Below, one piece after another: positions 3,969-20,924 of a DNA stretch of 22,346 bases (positions are counted from its first letter, which is position 1; every line of letters starts with the position of its first letter). This DNA comes from a virus. The DNA is taken from positions 1 to 22,346 of the IMG/VR virus record IMGVR_UViG_3300021957_000347, one strand, 5' to 3'. Under the pieces are notes generated by a model. The model was not told where the DNA came from and searched no databases. It saw only the letters and a program-made list of their open reading frames with translations. Both the position numbers and the translations under genes were made by a program.

Positions 3969-5300
3969 ATGTATCTTACTGAAAATTTACAAGAAAAGTG
4001 GCAGCCAGTATTAGAGCATCCAGATTTACCAAAAATCGGTGATAGCTATAAGCGTGCTGTTACAACTGTTATTCTTGAGAACCAAGAAAAAGCAGTAAGG
4101 GAAGACTCAGAGTTTATGACTGAAGCGGCGCCTGCGAATAGCACAGCTGCGGCAGCTAACTGGGATCCTGTACTAATTTCTTTAGTACGAAGAGCAATGC
4201 CTAACCTAATTGCTTATGATGTTTGTGGCGTACAACCAATGACTGGACCAACTGGTCTAATCTTTGCTATGCGTTCAAGATATAGCACTACTGGTGGTAC
4301 AGAAGCGTTATATAACGAAGCTAACACAGAATTTTCTTCTGATAATGCTACTACAAACAGCCCGACAGCATCTGGTGATGCACAAGCAGGAACAAACCCT
4401 GCAATTTTGAACGACAGCCCATCTGCTGGTACTTATACTACTAGTTCTGGTATGACAACTGCTGGTGCAGAAGCTCTAGGCGATGCTTCTACTAACGCAT
4501 TTGCTGAAATGGCGTTCTCTATTGACAAAGTTACTGTTACTGCTCGTTCAAGAGCTCTTAAAGCTGAGTATACAATGGAACTTGCACAAGACCTTAAAGC
4601 GATTCACGGCTTAGACGCTGAAACTGAATTAGCTAACATCTTGTCAAGCGAAATTCTTGCTGAAATCAACCGTGAAGTTGTTCGTTCTATCTATGGTCAC
4701 GCTAAAGCGGGTGCTCAAGTTAATACTACAACTGCTGGTATCTTCGACCTTGATACTGATTCAAATGGTCGCTGGTCTGTTGAGAAGTTCAAAGGACTTC
4801 TTTATCAACTAGAAAGAGATGCTAATGCGATTGGTCAACAGACTCGTAGAGGCAAGGGTAACATAATCATCTGTTCTGCTGATGTAGCTTCTGCTCTTCA
4901 AATGGCTGGTGTTTTAGATTACGCTCCTGCTCTATCTACTAACTTGAATGTTGATGATACTGGTAATACTTTTGCTGGTGTTCTTAATGGTAAGTTCAAA
5001 GTATATGTTGACCCATATAGTGCGAATGTATCTGCAAGTCAATTCTATGTTGCTGGATATAAAGGTACTTCACCTTATGACTCTGGACTTTTCTACTGCC
5101 CATATGTCCCATTACAAATGGTTCGTGCAGTTGGTCAAGATTCATTCCAACCTAAAATTGGTTTCAAGACTCGTTACGGAATGGTTCAAAACCCATTTGC
5201 AACGACTCGTGGTACTGGTGTGCTAGATGTATCTGGCGCAGTTGCTGCTGCAGACCAAAATATGTACTACCGTAGAGTTAAAGTTACAAACATTATGTAA
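3969..5300 (+). CDS. gp23: Major capsid protein gp23
   Basis: A 443-residue T4-type major capsid protein (HK97 fold). Recognisable segments include the N-terminal arm ending FMTEAAPAN, the conserved LVRRAMPNLIAYDVCGVQPMTGPTGLIFAMRSRY, and AEYTMELAQDLKAIHGLDAETELANILSSEI further on. The T4 protease cuts gp23 after a hydrophobic-x-Glu triplet. Here Met50-Thr51-Glu52 is the likely site, releasing a 52-residue propeptide. The protein is shorter than T4 gp23 (521 aa), as is usual in marine T4-like phages. A strong AAGGAGAG precedes the ATG and a strong terminator follows. No gp24 vertex gene follows. Confidence 0.97.
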   Translation: MYLTENLQEKWQPVLEHPDLPKIGDSYKRAVTTVILENQEKAVREDSEFMTEAAPANSTAAAANWDPVLISLVRRAMPNLIAYDVCGVQPMTGPTGLIFAMRSRYSTTGGTEALYNEANTEFSSDNATTNSPTASGDAQAGTNPAILNDSPSAGTYTTSSGMTTAGAEALGDASTNAFAEMAFSIDKVTVTARSRALKAEYTMELAQDLKAIHGLDAETELANILSSEILAEINREVVRSIYGHAKAGAQVNTTTAGIFDLDTDSNGRWSVEKFKGLLYQLERDANAIGQQTRRGKGNIIICSADVASALQMAGVLDYAPALSTNLNVDDTGNTFAGVLNGKFKVYVDPYSANVSASQFYVAGYKGTSPYDSGLFYCPYVPLQMVRAVGQDSFQPKIGFKTRYGMVQNPFATTRGTGVLDVSGAVAAADQNMYYRRVKVTNIM

Positions 5301-5322
5301 TTTTTTCTACAAAGTAGATATG

Positions 5323-5351
5323 AAAAAGGCACCTTCGGGTGTCTTTTTTTT
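5323..5351 (+). terminator. Rho-independent terminator after gp23
   Basis: An A-rich left arm with GGCACC, a TTCG tetraloop and GGTGTC run into eight T's. The stem is 6 bp of mostly GC (one G-U pair) extended by A-U pairs. The UUCG loop and T tract make it a textbook terminator. It closes the head operon 22 bases after the gp23 stop. Confidence 0.93.
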
Positions 5352-5365
5352 ACTTCCATAACTCT

Positions 5366-5373
5366 TATAAATA
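5366..5373 (+). promoter_or_regulatory. Late promoter immediately before the 111-aa gene
   Basis: An exact TATAAATA lies between the gp23 terminator and the ATG at 5379, with only five bases between box and start codon. By T4 geometry the first transcribed base would be at or next to the A of the ATG, giving a leaderless or nearly leaderless mRNA. No Shine-Dalgarno sequence is available in the short gap, which agrees. Confidence 0.8.
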
Positions 5374-5378
5374 ATAGT

Positions 5379-5714
5379 ATGAAAACATTAAAACAAGTAG
5401 AACAAATAGACTGCATTTGCGAAGAAAAATATCAAGACTTAGTAATTACAGAAGCAGAGTATCAAGGTAAAAAAGTCAAACTGAACGACCCGATACGAGG
5501 TGGTAGTAAGAAGTTTTATGTTTATGTCAAAGATGGCGACAAAGTAAAGAAAGTATCTTTTGGTGATACGACAGGATTGTCTATCAAAAGAGATGACCCA
5601 GCGAGAAGAAAGTCATTTCGTGCTAGACACAACTGCGATACTGCAAAAGATAAAACAAGTGCAAGATACTGGTCGTGTTATCAATGGCGTGCAAACGCAC
5701 CTGTAAATAACTAA
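5379..5714 (+). CDS. Conserved basic phage protein (RARHNCD...TSARYWSC motif), unknown function
   Basis: A 111-residue protein with a lysine-rich centre and a well-conserved-looking C-terminal half: SIKRDDPARRKSFRARHNC, then about a dozen residues, then TSARYWSCYQW. The His and Cys residues of that block could bind a metal, although the spacing is not a standard zinc finger. I have the impression of a family found in large marine phages, but cannot assign a role. It is expressed from its own late promoter just after gp23, which points to a virion or head-linked protein. Its TAA overlaps a second, truncated copy of the tail-tube start (TAATG at 5712-5716), so tail-tube was probably its original next gene. 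Confidence 0.75.
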   Translation: MKTLKQVEQIDCICEEKYQDLVITEAEYQGKKVKLNDPIRGGSKKFYVYVKDGDKVKKVSFGDTTGLSIKRDDPARRKSFRARHNCDTAKDKTSARYWSCYQWRANAPVNN

Positions 5715-5733
5715 TGACAACAACGAATGTAAA
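5714..5733 (+). repeat. 20-bp direct repeat, copy 1 (duplicated start of the tail-tube gene)
   Basis: Bases 5714-5733 are identical to 6272-6291, the first 20 coding bases of the tail-tube gene (Met-Thr-Thr-Thr-Asn-Val and part of the next codon). The two copies flank the oxygenase at 5736-6275. The flanking bases differ on both sides, so the repeat is exactly 20 bp. It looks like a target duplication or recombination scar from insertion of the oxygenase. Confidence 0.9.
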
Positions 5734-5752
5734 TAATGATAAAAGTACATGA
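5714..5752 (+). pseudogene. Remnant 5' end of the tail-tube gene
   Basis: ATG at 5714 opens a 12-codon frame (MTTTNVNNDKST) that stops at 5750-5752. Its first seven residues are those of the intact tail-tube protein starting at 6272. It keeps the original TAATG overlap with the 111-aa gene, so ribosomes may still initiate here and re-initiate at the oxygenase ATG (5736), which lies inside this short frame. Confidence 0.75.
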
Positions 5753-6275
5753 TGATTTTTTTGATAAACAATGGTTAGACGAAATATCAGATAGATTTAT
5801 TAATGCTCCATGGTATGCAAACAATGTTGCTAATGCAGACACTTGGCCATATGGATTAAAAGGCACTCATAGAATTCTTGGTGATTGTTTTTATAATACC
5901 GAGTCTGACAATTATAATCATACAGACAAAAAATTAGGTAATGGATTAATAAATTCGTTTGAGCACATACAATATAAATTAAAAAGAGAAATGAAATTGT
6001 TAGTGATACATACCAATTTGCAATTTATGGGTATGGACGGCACACTTCATGTAGATGGTAATAGTAACCAATCTGCCTTTATTTTAATGTTAAGTAATGA
6101 ACATTATTCAGAGAATATAGGTGGTGGTTTTTATCACGAACCTACTGACACAATTATTGATTACAAATATGGTAGACTAATAGAAATTACGGCCTCTGAC
6201 CCACATAAAGGCCTATCATTTAATAAACCGGATATCGCAAGATTTTCCGTAAAATATCTAGGCGAAAATATATGA
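5736..6275 (+). CDS. 2OG-Fe(II) oxygenase 1 (HxD type)
   Basis: A 179-residue putative 2-oxoglutarate- and Fe(II)-dependent dioxygenase. The iron triad is visible: His105-Val-Asp107 in GTLHVDGNSNQSAFILML and His157 in SDPHKGLSF, with Arg169 (ARFSVKY) placed to bind 2-oxoglutarate. The family hydroxylates proteins, nucleic acids or small molecules while turning 2-oxoglutarate into succinate. The substrate is not evident. The gene sits between the two copies of a 20-bp repeat, has no Shine-Dalgarno of its own, and takes its TGA stop from the second copy (ATGA overlap with the tail-tube start). It is the clearest inserted oxygenase in the window. Confidence 0.85.
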   Translation: MIKVHDDFFDKQWLDEISDRFINAPWYANNVANADTWPYGLKGTHRILGDCFYNTESDNYNHTDKKLGNGLINSFEHIQYKLKREMKLLVIHTNLQFMGMDGTLHVDGNSNQSAFILMLSNEHYSENIGGGFYHEPTDTIIDYKYGRLIEITASDPHKGLSFNKPDIARFSVKYLGENI

Positions 6276-6291
6276 CAACAACGAATGTAAA
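6272..6291 (+). repeat. 20-bp direct repeat, copy 2 (functional tail-tube start)
   Basis: The second copy of the 5714-5733 sequence, here forming the first codons of the intact tail-tube gene. Its ATGA also supplies the stop codon of the upstream oxygenase. Confidence 0.9.
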
Positions 6292-6847
6292 CACTAGAGA
6301 ACCGACCGTACTAGACTATGCAAGCCCTGTCCAGTTTAGGTTTAAGTGTTCTAAACTACCAACTGTAGAGTTCTTTTGCCAGACTGCAAACATTCCTGGC
6401 ATCTCATTAGGGCAGGCGACTGTAGACACGCCTCTGAAATCAATACCTTTTCCAGGCGATGAGTTAAATTATCAAGACTTAGGTATATCATTTCTTGTAG
6501 ACGAGAATCTAAACAACTACAAAGAAATACACGACTGGTTAACTGGTCTTGGTGCACCACAGAATCACAATCAATTCTCAACTTTGAGAGATACGGGCAC
6601 AGATAGATTTCCTGGTCAAACTACAAGTTCGCCAAACAATAATGTAATACCAGATGGCGGCACATATTCAGATGCTACATTGACGATACTGAATAGTAAG
6701 AACATTGCAAAAGTTGAAATAAGATTTCACAACATTTTCCCAACATCTCTTGGTGCATTATCGTATGATGTACAGGCAAGTGATGTGAACTATCTACAAG
6801 CATCTGTAGATTTTAGTTACATGTACTATGAAATAGTTCAGCTGTAA
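6272..6847 (+). CDS. Tail-tube-family protein (gp19 type; may be the tube initiator gp54)
   Basis: A 191-residue protein with the outline of T4 gp19-family tube proteins: an N-terminal SPVQFRFKCSKLPTVEFFCQ strand pair, ANIPGISLGQATVDTP, and GDELNYQDLGISFLVDENLNNYKEIHDWL. The C-terminal part is KVEIRFHNIFPTSLGALSYD then VDFSYMYYEI, like the gp19 ending in which the tube ring interface lies. In T4-like phages the main gp19 gene normally sits beside gp18, upstream of gp20. This copy lies after gp23, so it may be the related baseplate tube initiator gp54 or another tube-like protein. Family assignment is firmer than the exact role. Confidence 0.75.
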   Translation: MTTTNVNTREPTVLDYASPVQFRFKCSKLPTVEFFCQTANIPGISLGQATVDTPLKSIPFPGDELNYQDLGISFLVDENLNNYKEIHDWLTGLGAPQNHNQFSTLRDTGTDRFPGQTTSSPNNNVIPDGGTYSDATLTILNSKNIAKVEIRFHNIFPTSLGALSYDVQASDVNYLQASVDFSYMYYEIVQL

Positions 6848-6858
6848 CACTTGAAATA

Positions 6859-6873
6859 CCCACTTTTTGTGGG
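6859..6873 (+). terminator. Short hairpin after the tail-tube gene
   Basis: CCCAC, a five-T loop and GTGGG form a perfect 5-bp GC-rich stem 12 bases after the tail-tube stop. No T tract follows on this strand; the sequence runs straight into a late promoter. It may be a weak terminator or an mRNA 3'-end stabiliser. Confidence 0.5.
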
Positions 6874-6875
6874 CG

Positions 6876-6883
6876 TATAAATA
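6876..6883 (+). promoter_or_regulatory. T4-type late promoter before oxygenase 2
   Basis: An exact TATAAATA starts two bases after the hairpin. Transcription would begin near 6889, leaving a leader of about 23 bases before the ATG at 6912. The hairpin-promoter combination suggests a new late unit starting with an oxygenase. Confidence 0.75.
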
Positions 6884-6911
6884 TAATATAACAACACATG
6901 ATGAATATATA

Positions 6912-7508
6912 ATGAAAAATGCATTGGTACATGATATCTTTAAAGTTCCAGTATATGAAATTGACTTAGATATCGATAATCAAAAACTATATAATTACTG
7001 CAATGAATATCAAAAAACCGAACAGGGTAGGGTTATAAGTAATCTGGGCGGATATCAATCAGAGGACTTAGATTGGAACGAGTCTGCTCTACAACCACTA
7101 ATCGAACAAATAAAATTAAACACAAACACTTTTGCTAGTGAAGTTGTGAATAGTAGCGAGCAAAGTTTAGCTAATATATGGTTTAATATAAACCGTTACA
7201 AAGATTCCAACCTAATGCATATGCACCATAACTGCTCAATATCCGGTGTATATTATGTAAAGACTCCAGATTATTGTGGTCAAATAGTTTTTGAACACCC
7301 AGTAGCAGATTTATTAGAATACTGGGATTTTAAAAGAAAACTTAAATCAGACAGAACTCCATATGATGCTGTAACATGGAACATGCCTGTTTATCAAAAC
7401 AGACTTTATCTATTTCCATCTTGGTTGAAGCACCGTGTAGACTCAAATTACAACCTAACCGAAGATAGGGTTTCGTTTGGGTTTAATACTCACTATAAAG
7501 GCGAATAA
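6912..7508 (+). CDS. 2OG-Fe(II) oxygenase 2 (HxH type)
   Basis: A 198-residue protein from the ATG at 6912; an upstream TTG in frame (6867) lies in the hairpin and is not a credible start. The core carries HMHHNCSISGVYYV, with His103 and His105, then LFPSWLKHRV with His174 and Arg186 (DRVSFGFN). The HxH...SGVYY...FPSWLxH...R pattern is that of a putative 2OG-oxygenase family common in marine phages. The usual acidic iron ligand is replaced by His, so the metal site is inferred, not proven. It is the first gene after a late promoter. A four-codon frame (6898-6912) ends in TAATG on its start and may couple translation. Confidence 0.8.
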   Translation: MKNALVHDIFKVPVYEIDLDIDNQKLYNYCNEYQKTEQGRVISNLGGYQSEDLDWNESALQPLIEQIKLNTNTFASEVVNSSEQSLANIWFNINRYKDSNLMHMHHNCSISGVYYVKTPDYCGQIVFEHPVADLLEYWDFKRKLKSDRTPYDAVTWNMPVYQNRLYLFPSWLKHRVDSNYNLTEDRVSFGFNTHYKGE

Positions 7509-7511
7509 ATT

Positions 7512-7940
7512 ATGACACTAGAAGAACTACAAGAATCAGCTAACAGAGATTTAAAAATAGACGATACTGACTTAGGCACAGAATCAATAAACATACCAAT
7601 ACTTCACAACAAATATCTACAACACTTCAATAAGTTTTCTTTACTTCTAAAGAAGGCTGAGTACGACCATCGAGTTCTTAAACGACAGAAGTGGGAATAT
7701 TATACAGGTAAATCAGACCCATCAGTTTATAAAGAGAAACCATTTGACTTGAAAATACTCAAGGCAGATGTTCATATCTATATGGATTCAGATGAAGAAC
7801 TACAGAAAGCCGACCAGAAAGAAGCGTATTTAAAACAAGTAGTAAACTATCTTGAACAACTGTTGAGAAGTATTAACAGTCGAAACTTTGTAATCAAAAA
7901 CGCAATTGATTGGGCAAGATTTACGAGTGGGGCATTGTAA
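7512..7940 (+). CDS. uvsY: UvsY, recombination mediator protein
   Basis: A 142-residue protein with the length and pattern of T4 UvsY (137 aa), the mediator that helps the UvsX recombinase replace gp32 on single-stranded DNA. Shared features are the N-terminal LEELQESANRDLKID, the central LKRQKWEYYTGKSDP (T4 has a comparable ALKARLDYYSGRGD), and the C-terminal SINSRNFVIKNAIDWARF (compare KSRGFAIKHIQDMRAF). It precedes uvsW as a functional partner, but three oxygenases now lie between them. Its TAA overlaps the ATG of the next oxygenase (TAATG at 7938-7942). Confidence 0.93.
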   Translation: MTLEELQESANRDLKIDDTDLGTESINIPILHNKYLQHFNKFSLLLKKAEYDHRVLKRQKWEYYTGKSDPSVYKEKPFDLKILKADVHIYMDSDEELQKADQKEAYLKQVVNYLEQLLRSINSRNFVIKNAIDWARFTSGAL

Positions 7941-8461
7941 TGATACTTGTTAATAGAGTAAAAGAACACGAAAAACACAAGGCTTCTCTGTTGTCTAAAA
8001 TTGAACTACTTAAAGATGTTTCGGACACGCCACTTATGCCAGGTGTGTATTCAGATTGGGATTTACCAGCAGATGTAGCTCGAGAGTATCTGGATGAATT
8101 CTATGATTTATTAGACCCAATTATGGAAGCTATTGCAGAATCTCATGGATTTAATACACCCAAATATCTCATAAGAGATTATCAAATGGGCATAACAAAG
8201 ATATGGTTTAATCAATACGAAGAAGGCGGAGAACACGATTGGCACAACCACCCAGGTTGTCAATTTACTAACTGCTATTATTTGGAGTTGCCTGATGCCG
8301 AATATGCTACTGAGGTTGTTGATGCCACTGGCGGACTCTGTACGATTTACGCAACAGAAGGTGATGTGATGACTTGTCCTTCATGGATGAAACATCGCTC
8401 AAAACCTAATGGGCCTGGAAGAAAGACAATCATTGCCTGGAATTCTAATTATGAAGTATAG
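7940..8461 (+). CDS. 2OG-Fe(II) oxygenase 3 (HxH type, diverged)
   Basis: A 173-residue protein. The ATG at 7940, overlapping the uvsY stop by one base, is preferred over a TTG further up inside uvsY. The core has GGEHDWHNHPGCQFTNCYYL with His102 and His104, and later CPSWMKHRSKP with His152 and a basic Arg161-Lys162 (GRKTIIAWN). It fits the oxygenase layout but has TNCYY where its relatives have SGVYY. Substrate is unknown. Its first bases (ATGATACTT...) partly resemble the start of uvsW (ATGGATACTT...), which may be a trace of how it entered the uvsY-uvsW junction. Confidence 0.75.
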   Translation: MILVNRVKEHEKHKASLLSKIELLKDVSDTPLMPGVYSDWDLPADVAREYLDEFYDLLDPIMEAIAESHGFNTPKYLIRDYQMGITKIWFNQYEEGGEHDWHNHPGCQFTNCYYLELPDAEYATEVVDATGGLCTIYATEGDVMTCPSWMKHRSKPNGPGRKTIIAWNSNYEV

Positions 8462-8482
8462 GAGAAAATAATGGAACATCAT
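8459..8482 (+). repeat. Imperfect junction repeat, copy 1 (before oxygenase 4)
   Basis: Bases 8459-8482 consist of TAGGAGA, ten extra bases, then ACATCAT. Removing the ten bases gives exactly the 14-base sequence at 9036-9049. The repeat includes the ribosome binding site and first codons of oxygenase 4. Confidence 0.55.
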
Positions 8483-9073
8483 AAGATATTTCCAACACAT
8501 TTATTTTTAATAAATGACTTTTATAAGTCTGATATGACAACAATGAAAAAATATATTTCTGATTTGTGGGTGAATAGAGGTTATGATTCAAATTGGCAAA
8601 CGAACTCAGCTGATTTACACAAGAAAAAAGAGTTTAAAGAATTTTCAGAATTAGTTATATCAACCAGTAAAGAGATATTGAATGAATTAAAATATGATGT
8701 CGAAGATGTCATAATAACTGATATGTGGGCAAATGTATTGAAAAGTGGAGAACATCATCCTGCTCATACACACTCAAATAATTTTTTAAGTGGGGTGTGG
8801 TATTTACATTCTGACAAAGGCGCTGGCATACAATTTCACGACCCTCGACCAGCCGCAGATGTAATTGTGCCTAGAAAGAAAGAAACAACAGTAAATAATT
8901 CAAGTATGTTGGGCTATGACTCTACAGCAAATAGAGCACTAATTTTTCCGTCATGGTTGCCACATTGGGTTCAACAGAACAAATCTAAATATAATCGCAT
9001 AAGTATAGCGTGGAATATTCAAGTAATAGGACAAGTAGGAGAACATCATGAATTCCAGTCAGCAAGTTTCTGA
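8471..9073 (+). CDS. 2OG-Fe(II) oxygenase 4 (HxH type)
   Basis: A 200-residue protein with a strong AGGAG at 8460-8464. The core has GEHHPAHTHSNNFLSGVWYL with His99 and His101, then ALIFPSWLPHWVQQN with His165 and Arg176 (NRISIAWN). It follows the same HxH...SGVxY...FPSWLxH...R layout as oxygenases 2 and 5' relatives at 15093. Its 3' end runs 26 bases into the next gene. It is flanked by imperfect copies of a junction sequence that contains the downstream gene's ribosome binding site, so it is a candidate second insertion. Substrate unknown. Confidence 0.83.
   Translation: MEHHKIFPTHLFLINDFYKSDMTTMKKYISDLWVNRGYDSNWQTNSADLHKKKEFKEFSELVISTSKEILNELKYDVEDVIITDMWANVLKSGEHHPAHTHSNNFLSGVWYLHSDKGAGIQFHDPRPAADVIVPRKKETTVNNSSMLGYDSTANRALIFPSWLPHWVQQNKSKYNRISIAWNIQVIGQVGEHHEFQSASF
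9036..9049 (+). repeat. Imperfect junction repeat, copy 2 (ribosome binding site of oxygenase 5)
   Basis: TAGGAGAACATCAT at 9036-9049 holds the AGGAG and first two bases of the ATG of the next oxygenase. It equals 8459-8482 with ten bases removed. Confidence 0.55.
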
Positions 9074-9608
9074 TTACATCTTTTTATATCCAAATGTCAT
9101 GGATAAAAAAACTTGTGAAGCAATAACAACTAGTTACGAAAAAACAGCAATGTGGCATAAGTCTACATTTTATGATGGCAAAAAAGATACAGGCACTTCA
9201 CAAGTCGCAATGAATGAACTTTGGGTTGATAATCAAATGCCATACTTTGAAGATATTAAAAAGTCTTTTGCATATTGTATAGATGACTACAAAAGCATTC
9301 ATGAAACTCTAAATTATTCCTTGACATGCACTAACTTTAGATTAAATTTCTATAGAGAAGGCGGATTTATGAATCAACACATTGATAATATACACCAAAG
9401 TCATGGGCAGAAACAAGGATATCCACATCTTACATCTTTAATCTTTTTAAATGATGACTATGAAGGCGGTGAGTTTGTTATATGTGGTGAGCCTTTAAAA
9501 AAGGAACAAGGTTCTGCTGTTGTTTTTCCATCAAACTTTATGTACCCACACGAAGTCAAAAAAGTTACAAAAGGGAAGCGATTTAGTGTTATGACATGGA
9601 TACTTTAA
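9048..9608 (+). CDS. 2OG-Fe(II) oxygenase 5 (prolyl-4-hydroxylase-like, HxD)
   Basis: A 186-residue protein with the classical prolyl-hydroxylase-type layout: FYREGGFMNQHIDNIH giving His111-Ile-Asp113, a LTSLIFLNDDYEGGEFVI strand pair, VVFPSNFMYPHEV with His168, and Arg178 (KRFSVMTW) for 2-oxoglutarate. The AGGAG at 9037-9041 fixes the start although it lies inside the previous gene. Its 3' end overlaps uvsW by 13 bases. This type often hydroxylates proline or other residues in proteins. The phage target is unknown. Confidence 0.9.
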   Translation: MNSSQQVSDYIFLYPNVMDKKTCEAITTSYEKTAMWHKSTFYDGKKDTGTSQVAMNELWVDNQMPYFEDIKKSFAYCIDDYKSIHETLNYSLTCTNFRLNFYREGGFMNQHIDNIHQSHGQKQGYPHLTSLIFLNDDYEGGEFVICGEPLKKEQGSAVVFPSNFMYPHEVKKVTKGKRFSVMTWIL

Positions 9609-11074
9609 TTATAGAAAAGAAAGACGAGGTATATCTAACGGTTGATACTGAGCCAAGTGTTCAACGAGAGTTATCTGAGTTTTTCACATTTTATGTACCT
9701 GGCTACAAGTTTATGCCAGCGTTTCGTAATCGTATGTGGGATGGAAAGATACGAATGTTTTCACAAAAGACAAAAGAAATCTATTTTGGTTTGTTTCCAT
9801 ACATTAAATCTTTCGCAGAAGAAAGAGGATATAATATTGTTTGTGGCAAAGATGTTGAGATAGACAACAAGGTAGATAGGGAACTTGTTGAAAAGTTTTC
9901 TAACAGCCTCGGCCAGAAGTTTGAAGCAAGAGATTATCAGGTCGATGCTATTTACCATAGTCTAAAATTCAATCGTGCATTACTTCTAAGTCCGACTGCA
10001 AGTGGTAAGTCATTTATTATTTACTCACTTATTCGATACTACACACATCTAATCAAAGACGACACAAACAATCGAATACTTCTCATTGTGCCAACTACAT
10101 CATTAGTAGAACAAATGTATTCTGACTTTCAAGAGTATGGTTGGAATGTAGAAAAGTATTGTCATAGATTGTATAGTGGGTATTCAAATGTTACAGACAA
10201 GAAAGTATTAATATCAACATGGCAAAGTTTGTTTCGATTGCCAAAGGCATACTTCGACCAGTTTGGCGTTGTGTTTGGTGATGAGGCACATCTGTTTAAA
10301 TCAAAGTCATTGACTGAGATTATGTCTAAACTGACAGACTGCAAATATCGAATCGGTCTAACAGGAACACTTGATGGTGCTCAGACACATAAACTTGTGT
10401 TAGAGGGTTTGTTTGGTGCCGTCAATAAAGTTACATCAACGAAGAAACTAATGGACAAGAAACAACTATCTAATTTGACTGTTCGTTGTTTGATATTGAA
10501 ACATATACCAGAACATTGCCAAGCGATATCGAAAGGCAAGTATCAGGATGAGATTGACTATCTAGTAAGTAGTCGGTCAAGGCAAAACTTTATTCGTAAT
10601 CTTGCGTTGAAACTAGAAGGTAACACACTTGTATTGTTTCAACTTGTAGAGAAACATGGCAAGAATCTACATCAAATAATCAAAGACAAGGCAGCTGATG
10701 ATAGAAAAGTCTTTTATATTTTTGGTGGTGTTGAGGCTGATGAGAGAGAAGCAATTCGAGGCATTGTTGAAAAAGAAAAAGATGCCATCATTGTTGCAAG
10801 TTATGGCACATTCTCTACTGGTGTTAATATTAAGAATCTACATAATATCATATTTGCAAGTCCGTCTAAAAGCAGAGTACGAAATCTACAATCGATTGGT
10901 CGTGGTCTAAGACTCGGTGAGAACAAAGTTGATGCTACATTGTATGATATTGCAGACGATATGACATGGAAGTCAAAAGAAAACTTTACTTTAAAACACT
11001 TTCAAGAGAGAATAAACATCTATACAGAAGAAGAATTTGATTACGAAATGCACAGCATAGAGTTAAAGGACTGA
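9596..11074 (+). CDS. uvsW: UvsW, RNA-DNA and DNA helicase
   Basis: A 492-residue superfamily 2 helicase. T4 UvsW unwinds R-loops and D-loops and rewinds DNA, ending origin-dependent replication and helping stalled forks. The N-terminal domain has FYVPGYKFMPAFRNRMWDGK, typical of UvsW. Helicase motifs follow: SPTASGKS (132-139, Walker A), GDEAH (228-232, Walker B), GLTGTL (254-259) and QSIGRGLR (432-439, motif VI). The length is close to T4 UvsW (about 500 aa). The start at 9596 lies inside the previous oxygenase, with no clear ribosome binding site, so translation is probably coupled. Confidence 0.96.
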   Translation: MDTLIIEKKDEVYLTVDTEPSVQRELSEFFTFYVPGYKFMPAFRNRMWDGKIRMFSQKTKEIYFGLFPYIKSFAEERGYNIVCGKDVEIDNKVDRELVEKFSNSLGQKFEARDYQVDAIYHSLKFNRALLLSPTASGKSFIIYSLIRYYTHLIKDDTNNRILLIVPTTSLVEQMYSDFQEYGWNVEKYCHRLYSGYSNVTDKKVLISTWQSLFRLPKAYFDQFGVVFGDEAHLFKSKSLTEIMSKLTDCKYRIGLTGTLDGAQTHKLVLEGLFGAVNKVTSTKKLMDKKQLSNLTVRCLILKHIPEHCQAISKGKYQDEIDYLVSSRSRQNFIRNLALKLEGNTLVLFQLVEKHGKNLHQIIKDKAADDRKVFYIFGGVEADEREAIRGIVEKEKDAIIVASYGTFSTGVNIKNLHNIIFASPSKSRVRNLQSIGRGLRLGENKVDATLYDIADDMTWKSKENFTLKHFQERINIYTEEEFDYEMHSIELKD

Positions 11075-11080
11075 TAAATA
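11073..11080 (+). promoter_or_regulatory. Near-consensus late promoter before the 149-aa gene
   Basis: GATAAATA, one base from TATAAATA, overlaps the uvsW stop codon and ends five bases before the ATG at 11086. Its spacing to the start codon is identical to the exact late box at 5366-5373, again predicting an essentially leaderless message. Confidence 0.5.
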
Positions 11081-11085
11081 TAAGT

Positions 11086-11535
11086 ATGCAAACAATAAAT
11101 GAACCAACACACCCAACTGATTACAGACTAGTAAAGTTAATGGATGGAACTCTATTAATGGGAACTATATCTGTTGATGATAATCATATGCGAATTGTAA
11201 ATCCATTAGAACTAATTACAACGCCTCGTATGACAGACCAAGGCCTAAAAGAAGATACGACTTTAACAAAGTGGATACAATTTACTGATGAGGTAGAGTT
11301 TGTTATTGCAAAGGACAAAGTGTTGGTGATAACTTTATCATCTGTTGATTTAGCACATTACTATGAAGTTGTATTAGATAAAATACAAAAGACTGATGCT
11401 AAAATCAGACCGGCTTTGAGTGCTGAAGATATAGATAGAATATTAGATATTGCAGAAGATATGGATATGCAAATTGGACCTGAAGATGACGAACCCGAAT
11501 TTCAACTACTAGATAAAGGCGTAACTGTTCACTAG
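11086..11535 (+). CDS. Conserved hypothetical protein after uvsW (149 aa)
   Basis: A 149-residue acidic protein that I do not recognise with confidence. Residues 15-40 read DYRLVKLMDGTLLMGTISVDDNHMRIVNPLEL, a strand-turn-strand pattern like the small Sm-like or SH3-like beta barrels of RNA-binding proteins. The middle is a hydrophobic-acidic mix and the C-terminus is strongly acidic (EDMDMQIGPEDDEPEF). There is no ribosome binding site in the 11 bases after uvsW. A near-consensus late promoter ends five bases before the ATG. A consensus promoter on the opposite strand (11580-11608) points into this gene. Confidence 0.7.
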   Translation: MQTINEPTHPTDYRLVKLMDGTLLMGTISVDDNHMRIVNPLELITTPRMTDQGLKEDTTLTKWIQFTDEVEFVIAKDKVLVITLSSVDLAHYYEVVLDKIQKTDAKIRPALSAEDIDRILDIAEDMDMQIGPEDDEPEFQLLDKGVTVH

Positions 11536-11579
11536 GTTAGCTTTAGGCTTTATGGTCTCTCACCGCATCTACATATGCG

Positions 11580-11608
11580 ATTATACACTCTTTTTTTAGA
11601 CTTGTCAA
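11580..11608 (-). promoter_or_regulatory. Consensus sigma70 promoter on the minus strand
   Basis: Read on the minus strand, TTGACA (11608-11603), a 17-base spacer and TATAAT (11585-11580) are an exact match to the bacterial consensus, preceded by GC as at the two + strand early promoters. Transcription would start near 11573 and run leftward, antisense to the 149-aa gene and then uvsW. No credible minus-strand gene lies downstream. Confidence 0.65.
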
Positions 11609-11627
11609 GCGTTTATTCCAAATAATT

Positions 11628-12236
11628 ATGTTTGAAGATAAAATTAAATCATTAGTGCCTCATTTTGGTAAAGCTAAAAAGAATCTTTACACTTGGAAAG
11701 AATTAGAAGGACTATTAAATTTAAGACCTTTTATGAGCTCTAATAGATTTCATCCTGTCGGCACAGCAACCTACGAATGGAATACTACTGGTTGGGTTAC
11801 TGAGCAAAATTCTTGGCCTATATCTTGTGTGAAAGATGTATTAAGTAAAGCCACAGCATATATTCAGGATTGTAGTAGAGTAAATGAAAAGATAAACGCA
11901 GTTTGTAAACAGTTAGAGGAGTTATTAAGTAGTAATTCAGACTGCCATATATATTTTTCAGTTGATAAAAGCTTACCAAACTTCGATAAACACAAAGATT
12001 CTTCTCATAATTTGATAATAGTGGCAGATGGAACTATAAGATGTGAATTGTGGGTAGAGGGCGGTCATATTATAGAAAAACATTTAAATAATGGCGATTA
12101 TGTTTTTATACCAGCCCATATGTATCATAGAATTACGCCTTTGAGTGATAAGCGCCTAAGTTTAAGTTTTCCAATAAAGACACATAAGGCAGAGCACTAC
12201 GAAGAAAGAGAGTGGTTAAGGCTTGACAATCTATAG
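11628..12236 (+). CDS. 2OG-Fe(II) oxygenase 6 (HxD type)
   Basis: A 202-residue protein. The C-terminal half has DKHKDSSHNLIIVADG giving His122-Lys-Asp124, a Gly-rich EGGHIIEKHLNNGDYVFIPAHMYHRITPL with His167, and Arg176 (KRLSLSFP). The layout of a double-stranded beta-helix is clear. The N-terminal 90 residues are specific to this protein and include a Trp/Pro-rich stretch. No Shine-Dalgarno precedes the ATG. Its last codons (Leu-Asp-Asn) encode the -35 box of the next promoter, so the gene ends exactly where the gp55 regulatory unit begins. Substrate unknown. Confidence 0.82.
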   Translation: MFEDKIKSLVPHFGKAKKNLYTWKELEGLLNLRPFMSSNRFHPVGTATYEWNTTGWVTEQNSWPISCVKDVLSKATAYIQDCSRVNEKINAVCKQLEELLSSNSDCHIYFSVDKSLPNFDKHKDSSHNLIIVADGTIRCELWVEGGHIIEKHLNNGDYVFIPAHMYHRITPLSDKRLSLSFPIKTHKAEHYEEREWLRLDNL

Positions 12237-12251
12237 GAGATATAGTATAAT
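12223..12251 (+). promoter_or_regulatory. Consensus sigma70 (early) promoter for the gp55 unit
   Basis: TTGACA (12223-12228), a 17-base spacer and TATAAT (12246-12251) form a perfect consensus. The -35 box lies inside the final codons of oxygenase 6. The expected start is at or next to the ATG at 12258, so the first message may be leaderless. It would drive the small basic protein and gp55 with host RNA polymerase. Confidence 0.9.
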
Positions 12252-12257
12252 ACTCAT

Positions 12258-12416
12258 ATGAATAAAAAAACTAACAGAAACATCAAAAAGGCGACTCAAT
12301 TAAAACATATCAAAGAAAAACTTCATCTACTGAAGGACAAGAAATCAAGTAAAAAGAATAATTTAGTCAAAGGTTTGAAGAATCTATTGAAGCGTAATGA
12401 CAGAAAAGGAATATAA
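12258..12416 (+). CDS. Small lysine-rich basic protein, early expressed
   Basis: A 52-residue frame from ATG 12258 to TAA 12414-12416. About one third of the residues are lysine, with asparagine and leucine spaced as in an amphipathic helix (NLVKGLKNLLKR near the C-terminus). It starts six bases after a perfect -10 box, and the gp55 ATG follows its stop by one base. Its place at the head of the transcript and its very basic composition suggest a nucleic-acid- or polymerase-binding peptide expressed early, but no family is recognised. The AAAAGGA ribosome binding site of gp55 lies inside its last codons. Confidence 0.6.
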   Translation: MNKKTNRNIKKATQLKHIKEKLHLLKDKKSSKKNNLVKGLKNLLKRNDRKGI

Positions 12417-12417
12417 C

Positions 12418-12936
12418 ATGGCAGAAGAAGTAAAACTAAAACCAAAACAGAAACCTCATTATGTAGATAATAAGAAGTTTCTGGCAGCAATGACAGAGTA
12501 TCGTGCATTAAGAATCAAGGCCGAAGAAGAAGGCAAAAAGCGACCTACTGTTACTAATTACATAGGCGAATGTTATCTAAAGATTGCTAATCACCTATCG
12601 TATCGACCTAATTTTATTAATTACACATATCGAGATGATATGATTTCTGACGGCATAGAGAATTGTCTACAGTATATGGACAACTTCGACCCCGAAAAGA
12701 GTAACAACCCATTCGCATATTTTACACAGATTATATACTATGCATTTATTCGTAGAATACAAAAAGAAAAGAAACAACAACATGTCAAGCAAAAAATGAT
12801 ACAAAACTTTGGCATTGAAAATATGATGGATTCAATAGAAGGTGATGATACACAATATCAAAGTCAAATGCTAGATTTTTTAAGGAGAAACAGCAGAGAA
12901 GAACTGCCAGAAGATAAGAAAAAAGAAACTAAATAA
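12418..12936 (+). CDS. gp55: Late transcription sigma factor gp55
   Basis: This 172-residue protein resembles T4 gp55, the small sigma-like factor that makes host RNA polymerase read TATAAATA late promoters. The core NYIGECYLKIANHLSYRPNF, then DDMISDGIENCLQYMDNFDP and NPFAYFTQIIYYAFIRRIQKEKK, corresponds to sigma region 2 and is close to gp55. The start at ATG 12418 is chosen because AAAAGGA (12404-12410) stands seven bases before it. An earlier in-frame ATG (12397) has no such site. It is expressed from a host-type promoter, as needed for a factor that switches on the late genes seen elsewhere in the window. Confidence 0.94.
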   Translation: MAEEVKLKPKQKPHYVDNKKFLAAMTEYRALRIKAEEEGKKRPTVTNYIGECYLKIANHLSYRPNFINYTYRDDMISDGIENCLQYMDNFDPEKSNNPFAYFTQIIYYAFIRRIQKEKKQQHVKQKMIQNFGIENMMDSIEGDDTQYQSQMLDFLRRNSREELPEDKKKETK

Positions 12937-13412
12937 TGCATTTGGAAAATAATTATTATTATTTCCAATCAGCAGTTCGCCCATCATTTTGTGATGACAT
13001 TAGGGTTAATGCCTTAGTTAAATCGGGTAAATTAGCAATACCTAATGAGGTTGATTCTGATGTTGTTTTGATGGATGATGACTGGTTATATAAAACATTA
13101 CATCCATATATTCATGAAGCAAACGAAGAGGCTGGTTGGAACTTTGATTGGGGGTTTTCAGAATCGTGCCAATTCAGAAAATATACAGAAGGCGCCTTTT
13201 CATCCTGGCATTATGATTCTTCAAGAAAGTTATCAGTTATGATAAACTTATCAGATGATACAGAATATGAAGGTGGAGATTTAGAGATTGAATCTAAAAT
13301 ATGTAAAGAAATAAAACCGAAGGGATCCATTGTGGTATTCCCTTCTTTTGTGAAGCACAGAATAAAACCAGTAACTTTTGGTACAAGATATTGGCTTAAA
13401 TTAGATAACTAA
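12936..13412 (+). CDS. 2OG-Fe(II) oxygenase 7 (HxD type, compact)
   Basis: At 158 residues this is the shortest oxygenase here. The core is FRKYTEGAFSSWHYDSSRKLSVMINL, giving His92-Tyr-Asp94, then YEGGDLEI, GSIVVFPSFVKHRIKP with His141, and Arg151 (TRYWLKL). This is a classical prolyl-hydroxylase-like core with nearly no N-terminal addition. Its start overlaps the gp55 stop by one base (TAATG). It is separated from gp47 by 13 AT-rich bases without a ribosome binding site. It splits the gp55-gp47 pair. Confidence 0.88.
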   Translation: MHLENNYYYFQSAVRPSFCDDIRVNALVKSGKLAIPNEVDSDVVLMDDDWLYKTLHPYIHEANEEAGWNFDWGFSESCQFRKYTEGAFSSWHYDSSRKLSVMINLSDDTEYEGGDLEIESKICKEIKPKGSIVVFPSFVKHRIKPVTFGTRYWLKLDN

Positions 13413-13425
13413 AAAATAATATATT

Positions 13426-14502
13426 ATGAAAATTGCCCTACTAAATGACACCCATTTCGGTGCCAGAAACGATAGTCTAATCTTTGATGATTTCTTTCAC
13501 AAGTTTTATGATGAGATATTCTTTCCTTATCTAAAAGAACACAACATCAAAACGCTCATTCATCTGGGCGATGTCGTAGACAGAAGAAAGTTTATTAACT
13601 TTAGAATTGCACACAACTTTAGAAACAAGTTTATGCAACGACTATGGGATGAAAAGATAGACACCCATATCATTATCGGTAATCATGATATCTACTATCG
13701 AAACACAAACAAAGTAAATGCCATAAAAGAGTTATGTACAACTCCTGACGGCAAGAACGAGCCTTGGATATACGAAGAAGCAAAAGTAGTAGACTTTGAT
13801 GGTACAAAGTTATTGATGATGCCTTGGATTAATCCAGAGAATGAAGCAGATTCAATTGAAATGTTAAAGACTGCCGAAGCAGATGTGTGTATGGGTCATT
13901 TTGATTTGAATGGTTTTGCAATGAATGATACTATGAAACAATCACATGGCCATGATAAGAGTATTGTGAGTCGTTTTGAAAGAACTTATAGTGGTCATTT
14001 TCACCACAAGAATGATGACGGCCAAGTGTATTATCTAGGCAATCAATATGAAATCACATGGTCAGACTACAAGAATCAGAAAGGATTTCATGTGTTTGAT
14101 ACTGAAACAAGAGATGTTGAGTTTGTGCCTAATCCAAATACTATGTTTATCAAGCTTCATTATGATGATGCCTTGACGAACTATGATAAGTTTGATGTTA
14201 CAGATTACAATCAAAAGTATGTGAAGTTGGTTGTTGTCAATAAAAAAGATAATGAAATGTTTGACAGATTGCTAGAAAGACTGTATAATGATATATCTGT
14301 ACACGAACTAAAAATACTTGAAGATTATTCTGACCTATCACATGTAAATGTAAGTGATGATGTTGTAGAAGGTGCAGAAGATACAATGAATTTAGTAAGT
14401 AACTATGTTGACCAGTTGAAAGTTGACCTAGATAAAGACAGACTGAAAGTGATGATTAAAGAAATGTATATTGAAGCACAAGATACTGATGCAATTAAAT
14501 AA
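13426..14502 (+). CDS. gp47: gp47, recombination nuclease subunit (Mre11/SbcD-like)
   Basis: A 358-residue metallophosphoesterase, partner of gp46 in the T4 recombination exonuclease that trims DNA ends and degrades host DNA. Phosphodiesterase motifs are in order: LNDTHFG (Asp8, His10), GDVVDRR (48-54), GNHD (85-88), MGHFD (157-160) and SGHFHH (189-194). The size is close to T4 gp47 (339 aa). The ATG at 13426 lacks a Shine-Dalgarno sequence and lies in an AT-rich string. The 3' end overlaps the next oxygenase by 14 bases. In T4 gene 46 lies close by; here two oxygenases intervene. Confidence 0.96.
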   Translation: MKIALLNDTHFGARNDSLIFDDFFHKFYDEIFFPYLKEHNIKTLIHLGDVVDRRKFINFRIAHNFRNKFMQRLWDEKIDTHIIIGNHDIYYRNTNKVNAIKELCTTPDGKNEPWIYEEAKVVDFDGTKLLMMPWINPENEADSIEMLKTAEADVCMGHFDLNGFAMNDTMKQSHGHDKSIVSRFERTYSGHFHHKNDDGQVYYLGNQYEITWSDYKNQKGFHVFDTETRDVEFVPNPNTMFIKLHYDDALTNYDKFDVTDYNQKYVKLVVVNKKDNEMFDRLLERLYNDISVHELKILEDYSDLSHVNVSDDVVEGAEDTMNLVSNYVDQLKVDLDKDRLKVMIKEMYIEAQDTDAIK

Positions 14503-15112
14503 ATTTGAGTTAGATAAAGACACACTCATAGGCGGCTGGTTTATGCCAGAGTCGGTTATAGATGATATAAATGAATACTGGAACTCACCAGATGCTCAAC
14601 AATATAAAGATTCTGGCCAGAGTGGTAATAGTGTTGAATCCGACTCAGATTCATATGGAGTTAATTTATCTACAAAAGAATCTATTGATATTTCAATTCG
14701 GCCTGAAGATGACAGTAACCCATGGTCTGAATATAGAAAACATTTACAAGGTTGCTTAAATAACTATTTAAAACTATTTCCAGCCGCTAATAATGTCAAA
14801 ACTTTTAACATAAGAGAGATATACAATCTACAATGGTATCCAAAAGGTGGCGGATATAAAAAATGGCATTCTGAAATAACTGGGGACTCATGGAATATTC
14901 ATAGACATCTGGTTTTTATGACATATTGTGGAGATGTGCCAGATGCTGGAACACATTTTAAATATCAAAACATTACTGTGCCTTGTAAAAAAGGACTAAC
15001 ATTAATTTGGCCTAGTGCTTGGACACATACTCACAAAGGCCAAATATCAAATGACCATGAAAAAATGATAGTTACAGGGTGGTATAATTTTAATGAAATT
15101 TATGATAAATAA
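14489..15112 (+). CDS. 2OG-Fe(II) oxygenase 8 (HxE type)
   Basis: A 207-residue protein from ATG 14489, 14 bases inside the end of gp47; a TTG further up is less likely. The core reads LQWYPKGGGYKKWHSEITG with His127-Ser-Glu129, then HLVFMTYCGDVPDAGTHF and LIWPSAWTHTHKG with His180. The residue expected to bind 2-oxoglutarate is probably a lysine (EKMIVTGWYNF, Lys192) rather than Arg, as in some prolyl hydroxylases. The HxE triad is an accepted variant. An acidic Ser/Asp-rich stretch lies at residues 42-60. It overlaps the next gene by 20 bases. Confidence 0.83.
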   Translation: MQLNKFELDKDTLIGGWFMPESVIDDINEYWNSPDAQQYKDSGQSGNSVESDSDSYGVNLSTKESIDISIRPEDDSNPWSEYRKHLQGCLNNYLKLFPAANNVKTFNIREIYNLQWYPKGGGYKKWHSEITGDSWNIHRHLVFMTYCGDVPDAGTHFKYQNITVPCKKGLTLIWPSAWTHTHKGQISNDHEKMIVTGWYNFNEIYDK

Positions 15113-15710
15113 TGTATTCCCAACTCCTGTATATATTGCAAGGAGTGATTCAGATTTAACTTCTAATGAAGAAATTCAAAAGATTATTAAAGAGGGCATG
15201 GTTGATAATGACTATAATTTATCTTCAGAAAATAATTACATTTTTGATGAAAATCTTAAAGAGTTAAAACAATTTTGTGAGCACCATATTAAAACATATG
15301 TCAAAGAAGTTCTGGCCCCTAAGGAAGAATTAGACTTCTATATTACTCAATCATGGTTAAATGTAACTAAACCAGGCCAACAACACCATCAACATTGCCA
15401 TCCTAATAGTTGTATAAGTGGGGTTTTTTATGTATCAGCTGAAGAAGATGATAGTATTACATTTATTGACTACAATTGGACATTAAAAGAAATGATAAAA
15501 CCTGAAATCAAAGAGTTTACTCAATGGAATTCTCCTCTTTGGTTTTTTCCTGCTATAGCCGGAGAACTTGTTTTATTTCCTTCATGGTTACAACATAAGG
15601 TGCAACCAAACGAAAAGGCAACTACGGATAGAATTTCTATTTCATTTAACACTTTTGTTCGAGGCAAATTGGGCAATAATAAAGAATTAACGGAATTAAT
15701 TATAACATGA
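15093..15710 (+). CDS. 2OG-Fe(II) oxygenase 9 (HxH type)
   Basis: A 205-residue protein (202 if the ATG at 15102 is used; neither has a Shine-Dalgarno sequence). The N-terminus NVFPTPVYIA is typical of this subgroup. The core is GQQHHQHCHPNSCISGVFYV with His101 and His103, LVLFPSWLQHKVQP with His168, and Arg180 (DRISISFN). It is closest in layout to oxygenases 2 and 4, with SGVFY after the HxH. Its end overlaps the gp46 start by four bases (ATGA at 15707-15710). Substrate unknown; the acidic iron ligand is replaced by His. Confidence 0.85.
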   Translation: MKFMINNVFPTPVYIARSDSDLTSNEEIQKIIKEGMVDNDYNLSSENNYIFDENLKELKQFCEHHIKTYVKEVLAPKEELDFYITQSWLNVTKPGQQHHQHCHPNSCISGVFYVSAEEDDSITFIDYNWTLKEMIKPEIKEFTQWNSPLWFFPAIAGELVLFPSWLQHKVQPNEKATTDRISISFNTFVRGKLGNNKELTELIIT

Positions 15711-17422
15711 TAATATTTAAAAAAGTAAGATATAAAAACTTTTTATCAACAGGGCAACAATTCATAGAGATTAATTTGAATGAGGCGCCTACGACACTTG
15801 TTGTTGGTAATAACGGTGCTGGTAAATCTACAATGTTAGATGCCTTATGTTTTGGACTATTTAATAAACCATTTCGTGCTGTAAAGAAAGACCAACTAGT
15901 AAACACAATCAATGAAAAAGAATGTGTCGTTGAAGTTGAGTTTCAGATAGGCAAAAAAGAATATAAGATTATTCGTGGTATAAAGCCTAATCTATTTGAG
16001 ATTTGGTGTAATGGTGATATGTTAAATCAAGATGCAGCCATTAGAGATTATCAAAAACATTTAGAACAACACATACTCAAACTAAACTTTAGGTCATTCA
16101 CACAAGTTGTGATTTTGGGCAATGCTTCGTTTGTTCCTTTTATGCAACTTCGTGCTAGACACAGACGAGAAGTCGTAGAAGAAATACTTGATATTGAAAT
16201 CTTCTCTAAACTGAATCTAATGTTCAGAGAGAAGGCAAAGGCACAAGACGAAACAATCAAACAGGCAGACTTCAATTATCAACTGTTAGATGGTAAGATA
16301 GAAACACAACAGAAACATATAGATGATATTAGTAATACTACTAAACACACCGCTGACACAAAGAAACTAGAAATCGAAAACTCAAACACAGATATCGAAA
16401 ACTATAAAGAAGATATTGCTCGTGTAAGGCGAGAGATTGCAGAATTACAGGTAGAGATAATTGACCAGACAAAGATTACTAACAAACATGGCAAACTTAC
16501 AACCATGGAAGCAAAGTTAGAAAACACTTGTATCAAACACAAAAAAGAATTGAGATTTTTTAAAGAACATGATGATTGTCCGACATGTAGACAGGCAATT
16601 GATGAGGCATTTAAGAAAGCAACAATCGCTGTCAAAGAGTCAAAAGTTGTAGAACTCGAACTTGGTATGTCGCAGATTGATAATGCAATCAGAACATCAC
16701 AAAAGAAACTAGATAAAATTAACGATACAGTTGTTGCAATACGAGAAAAAGAATTATTGATTAGTCGTTACGAAACCTCTATAAGTGAGATTGATAAATA
16801 CAAGGCCAGACTACAAACAGAAATAGACGACCTATCAGATGAAAAGTTTTCTACAGGCGTTGCAACAGGCGAACTCAATCAACTACAAGAGCAGCTTGTT
16901 GATGCAGAGAAAGATAAGTTAAAACAAAAAGAAGAAAAACTTTATATCGATACTGCAAGACACCTCATGCAAGATACTGGTATTAAGACCAAGATTATCA
17001 AACAGTACTTGCCTGTAATGAATCAATACATCAATAAGAATCTTGCTGATATGGACTTCTTTGTGAACTTTACACTTGATGAAGAATTTAACGAAACAAT
17101 CAAGTCAAGGCACCGTGATGATTTTCAGTATCATTCATTTAGTGAGGGAGAAAAGTTACGAATTGATTTAGCAATACTATTTACTTGGCGTGAGATTGCT
17201 AAACTGAAAAACTCTACAAACACAAATCTATTAATACTAGACGAGATATTTGATAGTTCGTTAGACACATCTGGTACTGACGAGTTTATGAGAATACTAT
17301 ATCATACAATGAATAAAGAAAATGTATTTGTAATATCTCACAAAGGCGACACCTTAATCGATAAGTTCCCAAGAGTAATGAAATTTGAAAAATATAAAAA
17401 CTTTACAAGGATGGCTGAATAA
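15707..17422 (+). CDS. gp46: gp46, recombination nuclease ATPase subunit (Rad50/SbcC-like)
   Basis: A 571-residue SMC-like ATPase that works with gp47. Walker A is GNNGAGKST (34-42). A long coiled coil (about 175-415) is interrupted by a zinc-hook CPTC (291-294). The C-terminal half has the signature SFSEGEK (477-483), Walker B LLILDEIF (508-515) with D-loop SSLD (517-520), and the switch His in ISHKGD (545). The length is close to T4 gp46 (560 aa). The start overlaps the previous oxygenase by ATGA. The last codons, AAGG-ATGGCTGAA-TAA, happen to look like a start site matching the first codons of the deformylase gene downstream. Confidence 0.97.
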   Translation: MIIFKKVRYKNFLSTGQQFIEINLNEAPTTLVVGNNGAGKSTMLDALCFGLFNKPFRAVKKDQLVNTINEKECVVEVEFQIGKKEYKIIRGIKPNLFEIWCNGDMLNQDAAIRDYQKHLEQHILKLNFRSFTQVVILGNASFVPFMQLRARHRREVVEEILDIEIFSKLNLMFREKAKAQDETIKQADFNYQLLDGKIETQQKHIDDISNTTKHTADTKKLEIENSNTDIENYKEDIARVRREIAELQVEIIDQTKITNKHGKLTTMEAKLENTCIKHKKELRFFKEHDDCPTCRQAIDEAFKKATIAVKESKVVELELGMSQIDNAIRTSQKKLDKINDTVVAIREKELLISRYETSISEIDKYKARLQTEIDDLSDEKFSTGVATGELNQLQEQLVDAEKDKLKQKEEKLYIDTARHLMQDTGIKTKIIKQYLPVMNQYINKNLADMDFFVNFTLDEEFNETIKSRHRDDFQYHSFSEGEKLRIDLAILFTWREIAKLKNSTNTNLLILDEIFDSSLDTSGTDEFMRILYHTMNKENVFVISHKGDTLIDKFPRVMKFEKYKNFTRMAE

Positions 17423-18033
17423 TGAAAGTAGACTATAATGTTTTTAATCTAGGAACTAAGGTAGTAAGATTTAAACTACCTAAAGATTTCGTAGATAGTA
17501 TTAATCAGGCGTATGATGACAAGTCAAATGAACTGAAACCACATAACGACCAACTTGCTGGTAAAATTGCTGATGAAAAAGCAATTGATGAGATATTAAC
17601 TGATGAGATGAAAGATAGTTTTCAATCCCTTTTTCAACATTATTTAACCATTGTTTTAAATGATGAAATAATGTGGGAACCAGTTTTAAGTCAAGCTTGG
17701 ATAAATGAAATGAAATCGGGCGAATATAATCCTGTACATTGGCATACAAGTGCAAAAAGTGAAATAGGCTTATCGTCTGTATTGATGTTAAAACGACCCG
17801 ATTGGTATGGTATAGAAGCATCAAGAGAAGAAGCGCCCGCAAACGGATGGTTAGAATTTACTGGCGGCGACCAATCACTACTTTCTAGGTCGCAAGTCCG
17901 AGTAGACGCTCAAGTAGGAGAGTTTTATGTATTTCCATACACTCTGTTACATGGTGTATATCCGTTTAATAACACCGACCAGGTAAGACGAACATTATCT
18001 TATAATTGTGATTTAATTAGAAAAGGAAAATAA
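17422..18033 (+). CDS. 2OG-Fe(II) oxygenase 10 (HxH type)
   Basis: A 203-residue protein starting in the gp46 stop (TAATG). The core has AWINEMKSGEYNPVHWHTS, with His106 and His108, and SSVLMLKRP. The second half has GEFYVFPYTLLHGVYPF, with His177, and Arg189-Arg190 (VRRTLSYN). An N-terminal LAGKI segment and the W-N-x-M-K-x-G-x-N-P-x-H-x-H block link it to the tandem pair at 20296 and 20925, making these three one subgroup. The acidic iron ligand position is His. It splits gp46 from the deformylase gene, which follows after one base. Confidence 0.78.
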   Translation: MKVDYNVFNLGTKVVRFKLPKDFVDSINQAYDDKSNELKPHNDQLAGKIADEKAIDEILTDEMKDSFQSLFQHYLTIVLNDEIMWEPVLSQAWINEMKSGEYNPVHWHTSAKSEIGLSSVLMLKRPDWYGIEASREEAPANGWLEFTGGDQSLLSRSQVRVDAQVGEFYVFPYTLLHGVYPFNNTDQVRRTLSYNCDLIRKGK

Positions 18034-18034
18034 T

Positions 18035-18712
18035 ATGGCAGAAAAACTAAACGCAGAAAACATTGAGGCAGCAGTTCAACACTTAGAGAATATACAAACA
18101 GGCAAGACGCCTATTCTTAGTGAACTGAAAGGCAATATAAAAGAAAAACAAAAGAAAGTATATCCTTTAATACCGCCAAACGACCCAAGATTATTAATGC
18201 AAGTTGCACCTTTTGTAGACGACACATTAGAACAGTTTGGGTTTGCAGACAGAAAAGAATTATCAAAAGTTATGTATGATAATATGGCAAAGTATGGTGG
18301 TCTTGGACTATCAGCAAATCAAGTTGGACTACCATATCGTATGTTCATCATGGGCGGACACCCACAAATAGAAGATGGCAAAGTTAGAAGTGTTTTCAAT
18401 CCACTTATCAATGATGTAAGTCCTGAATCTATCAACTTGAAAGAAGGTTGTTTATCTTTCCCATTTTTATTCTTATCAATCAAAAGACCGAAATGGTGTT
18501 CAGTAAGATATACTGATGAGAATGGTGAAGAAATAGAAGAAACTTTACACGGCATGTCTGCTAGAATATTCATGCATGAGAACGAACATATGAACGGATA
18601 TGTTTTCACAGACCTCGTGAGTAAGTTGAAGTTAGAAAGAGCCGAAAAGGCAAAAGGGAAGATGATTAAAGAATTAAAAAAGAGGCAAGATGCCCCGAAA
18701 ATCATTCACTAA
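18035..18712 (+). CDS. def: Peptide deformylase
   Basis: A 225-residue peptide deformylase, the metal enzyme that removes the formyl group from the first methionine of new proteins. All three family motifs are present: GLGLSANQ (89-96), EGCLSFP (137-143, Cys139 a metal ligand) and HENEH (181-185, two His ligands and catalytic Glu182). The last motif usually reads HExDH, so Glu184 replaces Asp. About 45 residues precede the catalytic domain and a lysine-rich helix ends the protein. AAAAGGA (18024-18030) precedes the ATG. Deformylases are well known in marine T4-like phages, where they are thought to favour translation in the infected cell. Confidence 0.95.
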   Translation: MAEKLNAENIEAAVQHLENIQTGKTPILSELKGNIKEKQKKVYPLIPPNDPRLLMQVAPFVDDTLEQFGFADRKELSKVMYDNMAKYGGLGLSANQVGLPYRMFIMGGHPQIEDGKVRSVFNPLINDVSPESINLKEGCLSFPFLFLSIKRPKWCSVRYTDENGEEIEETLHGMSARIFMHENEHMNGYVFTDLVSKLKLERAEKAKGKMIKELKKRQDAPKIIH

Positions 18713-18718
18713 GCGCTA

Positions 18719-18738: not shown

Positions 18739-18764
18739 AAGGATTGACAAGGAACAATTTTAAT

Positions 18765-20910: not shown

Positions 20911-20924
20911 AGGATGAAAAAGTA

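Follow-up and report, generated by a model that had tools for sequence, protein, structure and literature searches.

The closest known counterpart of the locus analyzed here is found in the mycobacteriophage LRRHood, which carries a 1.35-kb insert flanked by 29-bp direct repeats, while its relatives have this sequence only once (Pope et al. 2011, PMC3029335). An extra gene inserted where relatives have two neighbouring genes side by side has been termed a moron (as quoted in PMC3029335 and PMC1524935). In T4-type phages, modular shuffling mediated by promoter/stem-loop motifs, or PeSLs, has been described (Arbiol 2010 and Comeau 2014, as cited in PMC4503421).

Our locus lies in a 22,346-base IMG/VR virus record, the whole of which we refer to as the window. 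Here, a single oxygenase gene flanked by a short direct repeat separates a gene encoding 111 amino acids (aa) from the gene for the tail tube. As in LRRHood, there is extra DNA, the short direct repeat is located at a gene end and is single in close relatives, and genes of mobile elements are not invoked. The two cases differ in that LRRHood has gained four genes rather than one and belongs to a different phage group. The scar in the window is therefore a new, and unusually clear, case of a kind that was already published for LRRHood; we found no report of the same phenomenon in T4-like phages in the open-access literature that we searched. The insert also resembles a moron, in that it is an extra gene between genes that adjoin each other in relatives. 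However, morons typically have their own promoter and terminator, whereas scans of positions 5250-7000 gave no evidence of either, and the insert appears to be part of an overlapping operon. The likeness to PeSL-mediated shuffling, as this is presented in the citing article, consists in gene turnover at short repeats near gene starts in a T4-type phage; PeSLs are promoter/stem-loop motifs, while the repeat in the window is tail-tube coding sequence. Finally, the insert does not look like a transposon or insertion sequence: it contains no transposase or integrase ORF, homologues of its gene have no common ends, and the gains surveyed have no fixed length of duplication.

The repeat, ATGACAACAACGAATGTAAA, is an identical 20-mer found at positions 5714-5733 and 6272-6291 (all features are given on the + strand), and each copy opens with ATG. 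This exact duplication was reported in a preliminary description, and it holds up well: no third match with up to three mismatches occurs on either strand of the record, and the two copies are far beyond what chance would produce (0.02 matches expected at this tolerance in shuffled sequence). The sequence also confirms the roles that had been assigned to the two copies. The left copy overlaps the stop codon of the 111-aa gene (5379-5714; phrog_7595, unknown function) by one common base, in the form TAATG, and opens a frame of only 12 codons, MTTTNVNNDKST, that ends with TGA at 5750-5752 (frame 5714-5752). The right copy begins the intact tail-tube gene (6272-6847; 191 aa, gp19-like, phrog_45, E=6e-40), which is the target of the insertion, and its ATGA provides both the start of this gene and the TGA stop of the oxygenase gene (5736-6275).

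We took tail-tube relatives from viral contigs and read the DNA 5' of each start. As had been predicted for relatives without the oxygenase, 27 contigs (L002 to L028) have a single-copy TAATG junction in which the 111-aa gene ends on the tail-tube ATG. One of them, L004, is contiguous exactly at the position of the oxygenase and shares 94.8% identity with the window to the left of this point and 93.7% to the right. Because the left copy matches the empty relatives over 22 bases (5714-5735), the duplication amounts to 20-22 bp and the new DNA, which the empty relatives lack, to about 536 bp (5736-6271). Among the tail-tube loci compared, the 12-codon frame is seen in carriers only, as a stub of the tail-tube start, and is not conserved as a gene in its own right. 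The empty relatives therefore support the original reading, in which the 111-aa and tail-tube genes were once adjacent and the oxygenase entered with a 20-bp duplication. The feature is real and was read correctly from the start, and insertion with target duplication is established as far as comparison of sequences allows.

A single ORF, encoding 179 aa, fills the insert. This protein reaches no Pfam cut-off (best match E=0.047), and its PHROG match is phrog_274, a family labelled DNA endonuclease V. We judge this label to be wrong for the protein and call it an oxygenase on the basis of its fold and motif. The pattern HxD...H...R (H105, D107, H157 and R169) is invariant among homologues. A structural model based on six sequences (pLDDT 80, pTM 0.81) has the double-stranded beta-helix fold and matches 2OG-Fe(II) oxygenases in the PDB, with the viral collagen prolyl hydroxylase vCPH (5c5t, E=2e-7) and 6n1f (TM 0.71) leading. 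The product is thus a predicted 2OG-Fe(II) oxygenase. The label of phrog_274 may be wrong for the family as a whole.

Homologues occur in cyanophages and pelagiphages (HTVC008M, S-RIM4 and Sf-CH1b), with 31-38% identity over nearly the full length. They start and finish at nearly the same residues as the protein in the insert, so the inserted DNA corresponds almost exactly to one coding sequence minus its stop. The homologues in HTVC008M, S-RIM4, L083 and L422 are in genomic contexts other than the tail-tube start; that of HTVC008M, for example, has a tail-sheath-stabilisation gene on one side and the gene for the small terminase on the other. None of the homologues that we examined at other sites has a comparable flanking repeat. 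Since the repeat is the native tail-tube start, and since homologues elsewhere lack it, we consider it a property of the target and not of the insert, and we rejected the idea that it is an end carried by the oxygenase. In the sequences that we searched, no donor was found, and the homologues were distant ones only, with 49% identity at best.

We also surveyed gene gains in 420 fetched loci, comprising 3.3 Mb. A gain was defined as extra DNA whose flanks share at least 85% identity with a relative that is contiguous there, and clustering resulted in 58 distinct gains. In-register flanking repeats of at least 16 bp are present in 4 of these, where shifted registers lead to an expectation of about 0.17. 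The four cargoes differ, consisting of two oxygenases, an adenine methyltransferase and a small ORF. Apart from the insert in the window, the gain in L089 is an oxygenase (Pfam 2OG-FeII_Oxy_3) flanked by 20 exact bases, whose ATG comes from the left copy and whose TAA comes from the right. L225 has gained a Dam-type adenine methyltransferase whose TGA overlaps the ATG of the next gene; its repeat consists of 16 exact bases from the end of the upstream gene. The gain in L103 is a 77-aa ORF in a promoter region, with a 24-base repeat that includes two mismatches. Late-promoter sequence forms part of the repeats in both L089 and L103, and the similarity of these repeats could partly reflect common function rather than duplication. 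Scars of this kind do recur with other cargoes. Across all 58 gains, the offset between the joins forms a continuum that extends from the loss of tens of bases to the duplication of about 24. Two further candidates were discarded: a 35-bp repeat seen in L223 relative to L161 reflects recombination between related oxygenase genes and not target duplication, and the apparent overlap of 11-13 bp at the junction of a second oxygenase in the window (6912-7508) is unconvincing, as it matches AT-rich start-codon context.

The preliminary description left the mechanism open, and the survey favours two independent illegitimate joins over a mobile element. We put the probability that a T4-like marine phage acquired the single gene in this way at roughly two in three. 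A piece of DNA extending from the oxygenase's start codon to just before its stop would have been joined at the boundary of the 111-aa and tail-tube genes. The right join would have fallen at the tail-tube ATG and the left one 20-22 bases further into this gene, such that those bases are now present twice. The left copy would then retain the stop of the 111-aa gene, and the right copy would retain the tail-tube start while supplying, with its ATGA, a stop for the newcomer. The duplication leaves both neighbours whole because the ancestral stop and ATG had a base in common (TAATG); with such a border, an insertion can spare both neighbours only if it duplicates at least this base. Replication in T4-like phages is driven by recombination, and template switching or end joining in its course may have made the joins. 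The need to keep all genes intact would presumably filter them; a comparison of overlapping and gapped gene borders, made with regard to such a filter, gave p=0.23. The late promoter upstream would probably drive expression of the oxygenase, together with translational coupling.

Several alternative explanations have to be considered. The right copy might be the donor's own tail-tube start, if the oxygenase already directly preceded the tail-tube gene in the donor. In that case, a single illegitimate join, on the left, would have sufficed, with ordinary homologous recombination completing the exchange. A detail that fits this idea concerns base 21, which is T in the left copy, as in most empty relatives, but C in the right copy. 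However, the window is about as similar to L002-L004 to the left of the insert as to its right, with no drop in identity beside it or in the tail-tube gene, such that derivation of this gene from a donor is less likely. Moreover, apart from the carriers, the oxygenase precedes none of the other tail-tube genes in some 184 loci. We consider this scenario unlikely. It could also be supposed that the ancestor had the oxygenase and that the relatives lost it, as recombination between the 20-bp copies would yield precisely the empty junction, and the same alternative was raised for LRRHood (Pope et al. 2011, PMC3029335). Such a loss would be required in all 27 of the diverse relatives that have the 111-aa gene, while the carriers constitute one tight group (more than 99% identical) and more distant relatives lack both genes. 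In addition, what remains in the left copy is truncated tail-tube coding sequence, so this copy must itself be secondary. These points make the loss scenario improbable.

A dedicated enzyme, transposase-like or other, that makes a cut with a stagger of about 20-24 bp, inserts a gene and leaves a target-site duplication would account for the repeats of 16-24 bp that flank four independent gains of different cargoes. Yet 54 of the 58 gains have no such repeat, the offsets are continuous and include losses, the cargoes have no common ends and oxygenase homologues lack flanking repeats. The remark that no transposase or integrase is nearby is also consistent with our annotation: in the part of the window that is annotated, we recognised neither. 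The continuum of offsets, the differing cargoes, the lack of ends that travel with the gene and the lack of a recognised transposase or integrase thus all disfavour an enzyme with a fixed stagger, and we regard this explanation as very improbable. We see equally little prospect for the broader conjecture that T4-like marine phages have an unknown dedicated activity that places single genes at gene borders, duplicating 16-24 bp of target and thereby copying promoter, start or stop signals to both sides. Given that the record is a fragment from a collection of uncultivated viruses, a misassembled metagenome contig might also be suspected. However, the insert, with a repeat copy at either end, is also present in two contigs from other datasets, which show small point differences from the window outside the junctions: L081 shares 99.4% identity with it over 8.5 kb, and L082 99.9% over 4.6 kb. 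An assembly error therefore has a negligible chance of being the cause. Two independent illegitimate joins, with a filter for intact genes, explain the data with the fewest assumptions.

The entry of single genes into tightly packed phage genomes is usually inferred by comparing the states before and after, as the scars are erased, whereas both junctions can here be read to the base. Together with an empty relative that is about 94% identical and with three further gains in which other cargoes left a scar of this type, this legible scar offers a concrete means of measuring how marine T4-like phages gain genes. The case further suggests that such gains may survive thanks to the duplication of sequence where gene borders overlap.

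The 111-aa gene itself is apparently an earlier addition, a point that the preliminary description did not make. Among 174 usable tail-tube loci, 100 have a late-promoter-like motif of the TATAAATA type immediately in front of the tail-tube ATG and no ORF that ends at this point, while in 38 the 111-aa gene is in between and ends on that ATG; these counts are not fully independent, as some loci share contigs. In the window, TATAAATA is located at 5366-5373, now 5' of the 111-aa gene, and is called late-promoter-like from its position and consensus. The 111-aa gene thus apparently came to separate the late promoter from the tail-tube start, and the site appears to have received two genes in succession. 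Other small genes are found at this site in more distant loci (L073 and L050). The 111-aa gene also has relatives in Methylophilales and Flavobacterium phages and in HTVC008M, whose annotation shows no tail-tube gene beside it. In L006, an internal deletion (around 400-480) removed most of the 111-aa gene but kept its end and the tail-tube junction. The scans of 5250-7000 detected no promoter-like excess and no terminator-like site; phage-specific promoters might lie inside the insert.

Around 12 small oxygenase genes of the 2OG-Fe(II)/cupin type are present in the 22 kb (window positions 5736-21557). Most of them are wedged, singly or in pairs, between T4-core genes, i.e., those for UvsY, UvsW, gp55, gp47, gp46 and peptide deformylase, and relatives lack differing subsets of them. 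At the border of the gp55-like and gp47-like genes (12917-12936 and 13407-13428), the TAA stop of an oxygenase is supplied by AACTAAAAAATAATATATTATG; this sequence corresponds to the gp55 tail and junction in empty relatives and is possibly an older, eroded target duplication. This border took different genes in different phages: the adenine methyltransferase in L225 (5081-5590), a 515-aa gene resembling tryptophan halogenases in L209 (about 509-2057) and a further insert of about 480 bp in L098 (about 5297-5776). Lastly, the adjacent oxygenase genes at 20296-20910 and 20925-21557 share blocks of 73-90% DNA identity and look like a tandem duplication.
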